Source of the DNA: Shewanella glacialimarina
GTDB lineage: Bacteria; Pseudomonadota; Gammaproteobacteria; Enterobacterales; Shewanellaceae
Direction: 5' to 3'
NCBI RefSeq assembly: GCF_020511155.1
Contig: NZ_CP041216.1
Location: 1,116,001-1,180,000, forward strand
DNA: 64,000 bases
The notes below the pieces were generated by a model. That model was given only the letters and a program-made list of their open reading frames with translations, made no database searches and was not told the DNA's origin. Numbering within the stretch: the first letter of the stretch is position 1; every line of letters begins with the position of its first letter. The position numbers and the translations under genes were made by a program. Below, piece by piece: positions 14,657-19,565 of this stretch.

Positions 14657-15748
14657 ATGCAGCAAGATACCATCAACAATATTCATATTAGTTCTGAGCA
14701 AATACTGTCAACGCCGTCACAACTGAAACAAGAATTACCCTTGTCAGCACATGCATATCGTTATATTTTGGATGCGCGTAAAACGGTAGCAGACATTGTG
14801 CATAAACGTGATAGTCGGGTATTGGTTGTGACAGGGCCTTGTTCAATACATGATATTGGTGCAGCGAAAGAATATGCGCTTAAGTTGAAAAAGTTGCACG
14901 ATGAACTCAGTGATGACTTTTATATTTTAATGCGCGTGTACTTTGAAAAACCTCGTACCACAGTAGGCTGGAAAGGACTGATTAACGATCCGAATATGGA
15001 TGAGTCTTTTGATGTAGAAAAAGGACTACGTATGGCTCGTGAATTGATGATTTGGTTGGCTGAATTAGAATTGCCCGTGGCAACTGAAGCGCTGGATCCT
15101 ATTAGTCCTCAGTATATTTCTGAATTAGTCACTTGGTCTGCTATTGGCGCCCGCACCACTGAATCTCAAACCCACCGAGAAATGGCATCGGGGTTATCCA
15201 TGCCTGTAGGCTTTAAAAATGGCACGGAAGGCAAGCTAGATGTTGCTATTAATGCCTTAAAATCTGCAGCCAGCAGCCACCGTTTTATGGGTATTAACCA
15301 AGAAGGCCAAGTCAGCTTATTGCAAACTGCCGGTAATCCTGACGGTCATATCATTCTTCGTGGCGGCATTGCACCTAATTATGATGCTAAAAGTGTGGCT
15401 GAGTGCGAAACACAAATTCATAATGCTAAGTTGAATGCACGTTTAGTGGTTGATTGCAGCCATGGTAATTCATCTAAAGATCACAATCGTCAAAAACAAG
15501 TGTGCGAAGATGTATTTAATCAAATTGTCTCGGGTAATAAATCTATCATTGGTGTTATGCTTGAAAGCCATTTAAATGCAGGTAATCAAAGTACCAATAA
15601 GCCATTAAATGAACTTGACTATGGTGTATCTGTCACCGATGCCTGCATTGATTGGGCAACAACTGAAACAATTTTACGACAAGGCGCTAACCAATTATCT
15701 GCCGTACTGCCAACTCGCTTTAATGTGCTGCAAGTTGTTAATGGTTAA
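14657..15748 (+). CDS. aroF: 3-deoxy-7-phosphoheptulonate synthase (AroF type)
   Basis: DAHP synthase condenses phosphoenolpyruvate with erythrose 4-phosphate, the first step of the shikimate pathway. The 363-residue protein is the type I-alpha class, with [10 protein letters not shown], the [10 protein letters not shown] active-site loop, [19 protein letters not shown] and [10 protein letters not shown]. Being cotranscribed with tyrA suggests the tyrosine-regulated isoform. Its stop overlaps the tyrA start (TAATG), a sign of translational coupling. Confidence 0.95.
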
Positions 15749-17453: not shown

Positions 17454-19394
17454 CTACAAATAAAGCTCACGAAGCAGGTTGCTATCGGCATCGGTACAAG
17501 GCGCCGCTAATACAATACCATCAGCGTTAAGTTGCTTGGCGGCTCTTGCCTGTGGATATCGGTTATTGATCTTTTCATTAGCTACATTGCAAATGATAGG
17601 TAGATGGCACATTTGTTTTATGCTGACTAATGACGATAAATCCAGGCTGATGTGATCTGGTTTTGCAAAGCTTCTGACCCCAGAATCACACAAGATCACC
17701 TGTTGATTTCCTTGTACTAATACTATTTGCGCAGCAGCAAGCCAATCTTCAGCACTGGCCATGTTATTACGTTCAATAATGACGGGCCTATTTAAGCTGC
17801 CTAATTGGCCGAGTAAGCCTTGATTAAACATATATTGACCACTTAACATAACCATATCGGCTAAGTGAGCACTGCTAATATCGTTTTCTTGTTCGATAAG
17901 TAATACGCTTACTAATCCCGCTTGCTCAATCACCTGAAAATGTTTCTTTAGTTGGCTTTGGCTATTTACGCCCAAAGATGGGTTAAGGATAATGGCTTGA
18001 AAGCCAGCTTCTTTAGTTTGTTTTGCAAGACTCGCTAGTTCTGTATCCGTTTTGGGTGTATCAACTAATTGAAATGCGCCAAATTGATTATTACCTACTT
18101 GCAATTGTTTACATTGTACTTCACTGTCCTGTGACTTATATTCGCGACTATATTTGGTAGTGGGAGATGCAGTAAGCTGATTTGGTGACGCGACAGCCCT
18201 TGAGCTGTTCGGTTCAATCAGTAATTGTGCTTGGGACAATTGTGTCGGCTTGACTGACTCACAAGGGTAGCAACCTAATACTTTAATAAAACGGGTTAAT
18301 CGCTCTAATTCCTTAATGGCTTGTTGCACATTATGGTTGGCAAGATTGCCATCAATGTCGATATAGAACATTTCTTCCCAAGGTGTACCAGGAATGGGAC
18401 GCGACTCAAGTTTAGACATATTCAAACTATGGGCTTTTAACACCAGTAGTGCTTCAACCAGCGCGCCAGGTTTTTGGCCTGTAGCCATAATTAACGTTGT
18501 TTTAGCAGGTAATTGTGCTGGTACATCAACTGGTTTACGCGCAACAACAATAAAACGGCTTTGATTTATTTTTTGGTTCGCTAACCCATCTTCAATAGCG
18601 CTTAGCTGATATAGAGCACCCCCTTCAGCGCTACCAATAGCGGCAACACTTTGATTATCAGCTTCAATCACTTTAGACATTGCCTCAGCACTGCTAGCAC
18701 AATACTCAAGTTTAAATTCTGGATGTAAGCTCAGGTAGCGGCTGCATTGACTAATGGGTTGTGGGTGCGCATAGACGGTTTTAATATTGGCAGTATCAGT
18801 ACCTCGTTTTGCTAATAAGCAATGTCCGACTTCTATTGTGGTTTCGCCCACAATCGATAGGCTGGTATGTTGCAAAACGTCGTACACCTCATTAATTGAT
18901 CCTGAAGAGGTATTTTCAATCGGTAAGAATCCGTAATCAGCATGGCCTGATTCAACTGCGTTGACAATGTCATCAAAACTTTGACAGCCAAAGTCGATCA
19001 TTGTCACCTGCCTTCTATCACAGTAACGAGTGGCGGCAAGATATGAATATGAACCTCTTGCTCCTAAAAAGGCCACTGTATAGTGTTGTTTCTGTGTGTC
19101 AGGATTGGCTCTGCCGTGTAAAAAAGCTTGCTGGTTAAGCACAGAGTCTTCAATGATGCTTTGGTAAAGAGATATCACAAAATGTGCATCAAGCCCTTTG
19201 TCTCGTCCAAGCTGAACAAGTCGTTCTAATAATTGTTTTTCCCTTTGGGTATCTCGAATAGGTCTAACATCAATTTCTTTACTGCGGGCAACTTCAAGAC
19301 TGAGTTCGCGACGTTTGGAGAGCAAGGTCAGTAACTCATTATCTAACGTCGTAATTTGTTCTCTAGTTAGATCCAACCCTTGTGGTTTATTCAT
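17454..19394 (-). CDS. pheA: Chorismate mutase/prephenate dehydratase (P-protein) with a C-terminal degenerate DAHP-synthase-like domain
   Basis: PheA turns chorismate into phenylpyruvate. The 646 residues are far longer than E. coli PheA (386). In order: chorismate mutase (about 1-90), prephenate dehydratase (about 105-285, with QSRF at 278-281 where TRF is usual), ACT domain (about 299-375, GALV at 310-313 and ESRP at 330-333), a low-complexity Ser/Thr/Gln linker (about 385-425), and an extra domain (about 428-635). The extra domain lines up by eye with type I-beta DAHP synthases (LADMVMLSGQYMFNQGLL, RPVIIER, QQVILCDSGVRSF, LDLSSL, CHLPII). The catalytic signatures GPCS, LLKRG, CERG and DPSH are replaced by LVDT, IIERN, CDSG and NVAN. 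It is probably non-catalytic and possibly regulatory. A Phe leader peptide and attenuator precede it. Confidence 0.93.
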   Translation of the reverse strand: MNKPQGLDLTREQITTLDNELLTLLSKRRELSLEVARSKEIDVRPIRDTQREKQLLERLVQLGRDKGLDAHFVISLYQSIIEDSVLNQQAFLHGRANPDTQKQHYTVAFLGARGSYSYLAATRYCDRRQVTMIDFGCQSFDDIVNAVESGHADYGFLPIENTSSGSINEVYDVLQHTSLSIVGETTIEVGHCLLAKRGTDTANIKTVYAHPQPISQCSRYLSLHPEFKLEYCASSAEAMSKVIEADNQSVAAIGSAEGGALYQLSAIEDGLANQKINQSRFIVVARKPVDVPAQLPAKTTLIMATGQKPGALVEALLVLKAHSLNMSKLESRPIPGTPWEEMFYIDIDGNLANHNVQQAIKELERLTRFIKVLGCYPCESVKPTQLSQAQLLIEPNSSRAVASPNQLTASPTTKYSREYKSQDSEVQCKQLQVGNNQFGAFQLVDTPKTDTELASLAKQTKEAGFQAIILNPSLGVNSQSQLKKHFQVIEQAGLVSVLLIEQENDISSAHLADMVMLSGQYMFNQGLLGQLGSLNRPVIIERNNMASAEDWLAAAQIVLVQGNQQVILCDSGVRSFAKPDHISLDLSSLVSIKQMCHLPIICNVANEKINNRYPQARAAKQLNADGIVLAAPCTDADSNLLRELYL

Positions 19395-19445
19395 ACTATC
19401 CTCTTAATGATATTCAATTCGATTGCAATTTCGATAGTTAAAACT

Positions 19446-19472
19446 AAAAAGCCTCCCACTTGGGAGGCTTTG
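19446..19472 (-). terminator. pheA attenuator (intrinsic terminator in the leader)
   Basis: On the minus strand AAAGCCTCCC pairs with GGGAGGCTTT and a T run follows. An identical GGGAGGC at 19512-19506, just after the leader stop codon, can pair with the GCCTCCC arm instead and would act as antiterminator. This is the geometry of a translation-coupled attenuator. Confidence 0.85.
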
Positions 19473-19511
19473 GTATTTTCATTTTCTTTTTGATACAGAA
19501 AAACCGCCTCC

Positions 19512-19565
19512 CTATGTGGCTTGCATAAAAAAGAAAATAAAAACGCGACGCTGTATTTCACTCAT
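19512..19565 (-). CDS. pheL: phe operon leader peptide
   Basis: A 17-codon frame reading MSEIQRRVFIFFFMQAT, with four Phe codons in a five-residue window (FIFFF). It ends right at the antiterminator strand and lies about 120 bp upstream of pheA, between raiA and pheA exactly where E. coli keeps pheL. Ribosome stalling at the Phe codons when charged tRNA-Phe is scarce should favour antitermination. No ribosome binding site is visible. An in-frame TAA lies two codons upstream, so no longer version exists on that side. Confidence 0.85.
   Translation of the reverse strand: MSEIQRRVFIFFFMQAT

Follow-up and report, generated by a model that had tools for sequence, protein, structure and literature searches.

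We examined a 64,000-nucleotide window of the Shewanella glacialimarina genome (contig NZ_CP041216.1, positions 1,116,001 to 1,180,000) in which the pheA gene (17454..19394, minus strand, as are all pheA features below) codes, in one open frame, for a protein of 646 amino acids (aa). The predicted order of its parts is chorismate mutase (CM), prephenate dehydratase (PDT), ACT domain and a C-terminal pseudo-domain of the type I-beta 3-deoxy-D-arabino-heptulosonate 7-phosphate (DAHP) synthases. This last part appears to be catalytically dead, likely no longer making its old product, and shows the signature of clear purifying selection across the genus Shewanella. The combination of a selected domain and missing catalytic residues leads us to propose, as a reading to which we give not quite an even chance, that the domain is a regulatory module integral to the enzyme: a small molecule would bind in its reshaped pocket and adjust the CM and PDT activities.

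The N-terminal part of PheA fits a bifunctional CM-PDT P-protein, with an AroQ-type CM, a PDT and an ACT domain that have retained their conserved residues; alignment columns are invariant in all three domains. The CM domain (residues 11–89; 19128..19364) matches PF01817 with 71 bits, and the PDT domain (residues 107–287; 18534..19076) matches PF00800 with 190 bits, each above its own cut-off. Residues R11, R28, K39, D48, E52, S84 and Q88, which correspond to the catalytic CM residues of the E. coli enzyme, do not vary in 93 aligned rows. The match of the ACT domain (residues 297–377; 18264..18506) to PF01842 is weak (18.2 bits, cut-off 27), and its strands and helices are present in the AlphaFold2 model. 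It has the GALV and ESRP motifs, which presumably take part in phenylalanine binding. A phenylalanine-bound PDT structure (6vh5) aligns with PheA residues 102–383, and the best NCBIfam match of the protein is PRK10622 (535 bits; its cut-off is 577). A linker (residues 386–411; 18162..18239) with predicted local distance difference test scores (pLDDT) below 50 across residues 393–410 joins these parts to the C-terminal domain.

The C-terminal domain (residues 412–646; 17457..18161) had been described in a first-pass annotation of the window as a degenerate I-beta DAHP synthase, and profiles, predicted fold and residue counts all bear this out. PF00793 matches the region with 49.1 bits (cut-off 25.5, E 4.7e-13), and the I-beta model TIGR01361 (DAHP_synth_Bsub) matches residues 415–628 with 91 bits (E 7.5e-26), which is under the curated 267.75 bits at which NCBI assigns the name of a working enzyme. 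I-beta enzymes of the PDB match the domain with E values of 3e-18 to 1e-16, the best being 5j6f, 3nvt, 4c1k and 1zco (3e-18 to 9e-18), with 1rzm at 3.4e-17. The AlphaFold2 model has the N-terminal hairpin of I-beta DAHP synthases followed by a complete eight-strand (beta/alpha)8 barrel, which superposes on the Thermotoga maritima DAHP synthase at 2.1 A over 237 residues. Thus, the profile match and the TIM barrel that the annotation had named as checks were both found; its homology call for residues 428–635 stands, and its start is revised to near residue 412.

The loss of catalytic residues is more extensive than first described. Alignment to an intact fused relative confirms exactly the four reported changes (GPCS to LVDT, LLKRG to IIERN, CERG to CDSG and DPSH to NVAN) and adds the missing substrate loop FKPRTNPY, the missing last metal-ligand segment and the missing LRGG Arg. 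According to the parts of the I-beta literature covered here (PMC6362186), the metal is held by Cys, His, Glu and Asp; phosphoenolpyruvate (PEP) is bound by the Arg and Lys of LRGG-FKPRT, the Arg of GAR/GSR and a later Lys and Arg, the Lys of LLKRG being one of the PEP-binding residues; and erythrose 4-phosphate is bound by Arg and Thr. We scored ten catalytic columns, nine drawn from that source (PMC6362186) and one (the Glu of TEV) of our own choice. Full-length Shewanella PheA proteins keep none of the ten in 111 of 128 cases and a single one in the other 17. All ten are kept in 109/112 fused relatives from elsewhere and in 42/42 free enzymes, two sets that lean towards live proteins because a live query or a family cut-off selected them: the fused relatives are those of the best 120 of 7998 matches to a live query that exceed 640 aa and contain a split motif, and the free enzymes are matches above the family cut-off.

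The metal site of the Shewanella domain is lost as well, with none of the four ligands in 121/128 proteins and one in 7/128. The GAR Arg, the LLKRG Lys, the CERG Arg and the PEP-binding LRGG Arg are absent in 128/128. Ser or Ala stands in the CERG Arg column in 127/128, and Tyr or Phe in the DPSH His column in 104/128. The KPR columns are gapped in 128/128 in the ten-column alignment, a deletion that depends on the alignment, since an earlier one (which omitted eight rows without a split motif: six Shewanella, L204 and L210) aligns a Lys with the KPR Lys in 14/122 Shewanella. Residual DAHP synthase activity, for which only the family match speaks, is hardly conceivable given the retention of zero or one of ten catalytic residues and the presence of three type I-alpha enzymes in the genome.

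The annotation had also suggested looking for the extension in other Shewanella, and the domain was matched in 129/129 genomes of the genus. The full-length pheA frame is intact in 128/129. Only in L091 (genome G073) is the N-terminal part of PheA out of frame, and we excluded this protein from every residue count and rate estimate. Pooled ratios of nonsynonymous to synonymous substitution rates (dN/dS), estimated from 34 independent pairs, taken out of 118 whose core dS was 0.1–1.0, were 0.018 for the catalytic core, 0.074 for residues 416–646 and 0.137 for the linker (here 386–415). The value of 0.074 indicates clear purifying selection on the domain, looser than that on the core.

These values bear on the only published account of the fusion that we found. 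Part of a 2005 paper (BMC Biol 2005, PMC1173090) notes the S. oneidensis fusion, which is the same as that of the window PheA, once as 'bizarre' and has it as event 2 of its Table 6, where aroQ-pheA is joined to an 'aroAI-beta pseudogene of unknown origin'. The loss of catalytic residues, the faster divergence of the domain than of the core, the graded decay of related domains in a neighbouring genus and the lack of any in some of its members all fit a neutral relic. Such a status is nonetheless very improbable, and we rejected it because of the dN/dS of 0.074 and the 128/129 intact frames, to which the near-invariant new residues can be added. Compared with the covered part of that account (PMC1173090), we find the fusion to be genus-wide, under purifying selection and in possession of a near-fixed new pocket signature, with a likely source. 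Both halves of the 2005 label, pseudogene and unknown origin, now look wrong.

The new pocket signature lies at the mouth of the barrel. We compared 122 Shewanella domains with 154 live enzymes, setting apart six divergent Shewanella (L129–L134). Five columns conserved in live enzymes have been re-fixed in Shewanella to another residue: G519 (119/122), E541 (121/122), N543 (118/122), N603 (122/122) and L622 (122/122). E541-R542-N543 (17766..17774) replaces the KRG of LLKRG, D570-S571 (17682..17687) replaces the ER of CERG, and N603 (17586..17588) replaces the D of DPSH, so that three changes at the barrel mouth (K541E, G543N and D603N) are near-fixed in the genus. Four of 21 motif columns were re-fixed versus one of 94 others (Fisher p 0.0038), with motif columns and limits chosen by hand post hoc, on data already seen. 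The columns of the GPCS Cys and the strand-8 Glu vary among Shewanella. From the re-fixed motif columns beside these variable ones, one half of the old pocket looks re-specified and held, and the other half released. A near-fixed polar set (E541, R542, N543, E/D570 and N603) in the old catalytic-motif columns of a TIM barrel would also fit a barrel re-used for another reaction. We regard new catalysis as unlikely, as no metal ligand set is left, the substrate loop is missing and the first, second and last catalytic-motif columns vary.

Two of the three barrel-mouth changes recur in a second lineage, the Agarivorans group, where Glu541 and Asn603 are present in 8/8 rows; Asn543 is present in five of these, and the CERG Arg is lost in six. 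A core tree uniting this group with Shewanella alone was rejected by the approximately unbiased (AU) test (p 0.0045; the group was named for the test once the signature had been seen), and Glu541 thus seems to have arisen twice, apparently independently, in Shewanella and in the Agarivorans group. Gene conversion of the domain could also account for the Glu541 and Asn603 that they have in common. Four changes of Glu541 are needed on the tree of 40 fused rows, two of which we read as confined to one Shewanella row each (Asp in L097, Pro in L132). The recurrence of changes that are near-fixed in Shewanella favours a re-used pocket over drift. It is possible, though we would not rely on it, that the same rewiring, in which Glu replaces Lys, Asn replaces Asp and, mostly, the CERG Arg is lost, made the domain a non-catalytic sensor in Agarivorans and its kin too, a second and phenylalanine-independent allosteric input to PheA, and that many short gammaproteobacterial PheA proteins, the E. 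coli type included, may stem from such a fusion via domain loss.

For the regulatory module that we propose, the ancestor would be a live three-enzyme CM-PDT-ACT-DAHP synthase fusion of a kind still found in other bacteria. Its barrel mouth would have been re-specified by K541E, G543N, D603N and loss of the CERG Arg, and a small-molecule ligand bound there may act on ACT/PDT or on CM, which lie beside it in the chain. Since Glu and Asn now stand where the PEP site was cationic, the putative ligand is probably no sugar phosphate; it might be an amino acid or some other metabolite that is neutral or positively charged. Regulation of an attached enzyme has precedents in the crosstalk between DAHP synthases and CM in other systems. 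For example, the DAHP synthase-CM (DAH7PS-CM) fusions of Porphyromonas, Geobacillus, Listeria and Bacillus combine an I-beta barrel and a CM in one chain, with mutual influence, as far as the sources covered describe them. Those fusions have a live synthase for which the CM may be the regulator, whereas Shewanella PheA keeps the conserved CM-PDT residues and has lost those of the synthase; it also differs in having PDT and ACT inserted between CM and synthase. Likewise, in the MtCM-MtDS complex of Mycobacterium tuberculosis the DAHP synthase allosterically controls CM activity (PMC7762937, in part), although there the two are separate proteins and the synthase is active.

The main rival to a ligand-binding regulatory module is a structural one, in which the dead barrel sets the oligomeric state of PheA or stabilises it without any ligand. 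Such a role fits the low dN/dS equally well, and G562-N563, D585 and H597-L598-P599, which are the same in the Shewanella domain and in live enzymes, speak for it. Partial accounts of related proteins agree with it, with a tetramer modelled for an I-beta homologue (PMC6362186) and a barrel dimer interface that matters in the Porphyromonas gingivalis fusion (PMC12202928). We hold it to be a less probable but serious possibility, as it leaves unexplained both the new polar residues fixed at the former PEP site and the recurrence of the pocket changes in another lineage.

Several observations weigh against the regulatory reading. Divergence is much faster in the domain than in the core, with mean identities of 44% versus 83% in 800 random Shewanella pairs, and the six divergent Shewanella lack the full pocket signature (E at 541 in 5/6, N at 603 in 1/6). 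The post hoc choices behind the Fisher and AU tests and the alignment dependence of the KPR deletion count in the same direction. Most listed PDT frames of the order are near 390 aa and have no such domain, so PheA can do without it. Furthermore, the position of the barrel relative to CM, PDT and ACT is predicted without confidence (predicted template modelling score, pTM, 0.55), and ACT and barrel together fail to superpose on the T. maritima DAHP synthase (rmsd 20 A). The live Permianibacter fusion P0093 (model pTM 0.76) gave about 16 A against the 1vr6 chains and 11 A against 1rzm. We therefore do not claim that ACT gates the barrel as in T. maritima; the domains match in order but do not superpose in either the window or the P0093 model.

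Among the roles raised in the first-pass annotation, the allosteric or sensor one fits the conservation pattern, dimerisation may also apply, and docking of the live DAHP synthase AroF finds no support. The proximity of aroF-tyrA, which adjoins pheA, is the point in favour of docking. AroF (14657..15748, plus strand) is, however, a type I-alpha enzyme (TIGR00034, 507 bits) with intact GPCS, KPRT, GART and DCSH motifs, and thus of a different subclass from the I-beta domain. PF00793 matches five proteins in the genome: three type I-alpha enzymes, the PheA domain and a 286-residue frame that we take to be KdsA. In a draw of 58 genomes, 14 have an I-beta match over the cut-off, none of them among the draw's 35 Shewanella. 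The dead domain co-occurs with a single I-alpha enzyme in 7/7 Agarivorans-group genomes tested. On this evidence AroF docking seems very doubtful. A search for prephenate dehydrogenase in seven genomes added nothing.

The likely source of the Shewanella domain is a live three-enzyme fusion. Proteins of the CM-PDT-ACT-DAHP synthase type with all ten residues exist elsewhere, and 112 of the best 120 of 7998 matches to a live query have a PheA-type junction and exceed 640 aa; the source names include Melioribacteraceae, Gemmatimonadaceae, Aliikangiella, Permianibacter and Iodidimonas. The trifunctional proteins of Permianibacter (P0093) and Melioribacteraceae (P0056) have the same domain order as Shewanella PheA. 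Among the matches listed, P0035–P0154 represent a widespread, live-looking trifunctional protein, labelled, where a label is given, as bifunctional, as DAHP synthase or as chorismate mutase/prephenate dehydratase. Descent from free I-beta enzymes found in the same order is disfavoured: 15 of the 42 were sampled, and they group in a clade of their own (SH-aLRT support 100) in a domain tree of 71 rows, which includes 17/128 Shewanella and omits L192, L269 and five divergent rows of Shewanella. We did not use this tree for finer claims because the dead domains occupy long branches.

The pseudo-domain predicted on PheA is recurrent beyond Shewanella. In the order, of which 295 genomes were drawn, fused proteins range from three that keep all ten residues (L193, L207 and L208) to part-decayed forms such as L200 (6 of 10) and the Agarivorans group, whose eight rows keep 1 to 5 of 10. 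In a neighbouring genus of Shewanella's family (g2), three members keep 4 to 7 of the ten residues; a fused match is listed in 8/14 of its genomes, with scores graded from 347 to 37 bits, and two further genomes that we checked (L284 and L286) have a plain PheA. The g2 rows L185–L192 thus show a series of decay inside a single genus, with 7 of 10 residues kept at one end and a hardly recognisable domain at the other. L209 and L210, from another genus of the family, adjoin Shewanella on the core tree (97/94) and keep 0 of 10; L209 lacks the Shewanella signature, with Arg541, Gly543 and Glu603. Fused PheA proteins in three other families (L268, L269 and L288) have lost nearly all of the C-terminal motifs.

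The number of fusion events is less clear from the core trees. In a quick tree of 84 rows (leaving out two fused rows, six plain rows and P0034), fused and plain PheA proteins are intermixed, with at least eight changes. A careful tree of 67 rows, which left out ten live fused rows and seven others, mostly long-branched, has an unresolved backbone; the core sample included 22/128 Shewanella. Our tentative preference is for one ancestral fusion that was followed by repeated loss. The PheA proteins of L267 and L271 (genus g4 of the family) lack the domain and group with the plain PheA of another family (L272, 100/100), away from Shewanella, which suggests gene replacement.

With full-residue, half-decayed, re-specified and domain-less forms all extant in related bacteria, the conversion of a catalyst into a regulator could be traced residue by residue. 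The footnote of 2005 has become a testable case of a pseudoenzyme, and should a metabolite bind in the pocket, Shewanella would have a control point of phenylalanine synthesis that is absent from the textbook scheme of E. coli. A survey of the open-access literature by title and start of abstract returned nothing on the domain or on a trifunctional CM-PDT-DAHP synthase protein except PMC1173090, and the portions of PMC10520331 and PMC7311316 covered contain nothing on a PheA-fused DAHP synthase domain.

We also identified a phenylalanine attenuator leader 5' of pheA (19442..19562, minus strand), which matches Rfam RF01859 (Phe_leader) with 68.4 bits (gathering score 55). A short leader frame read by eye at 19565–19512, MSEIQRRVFIFFFMQAT, contains a run of Phe codons.
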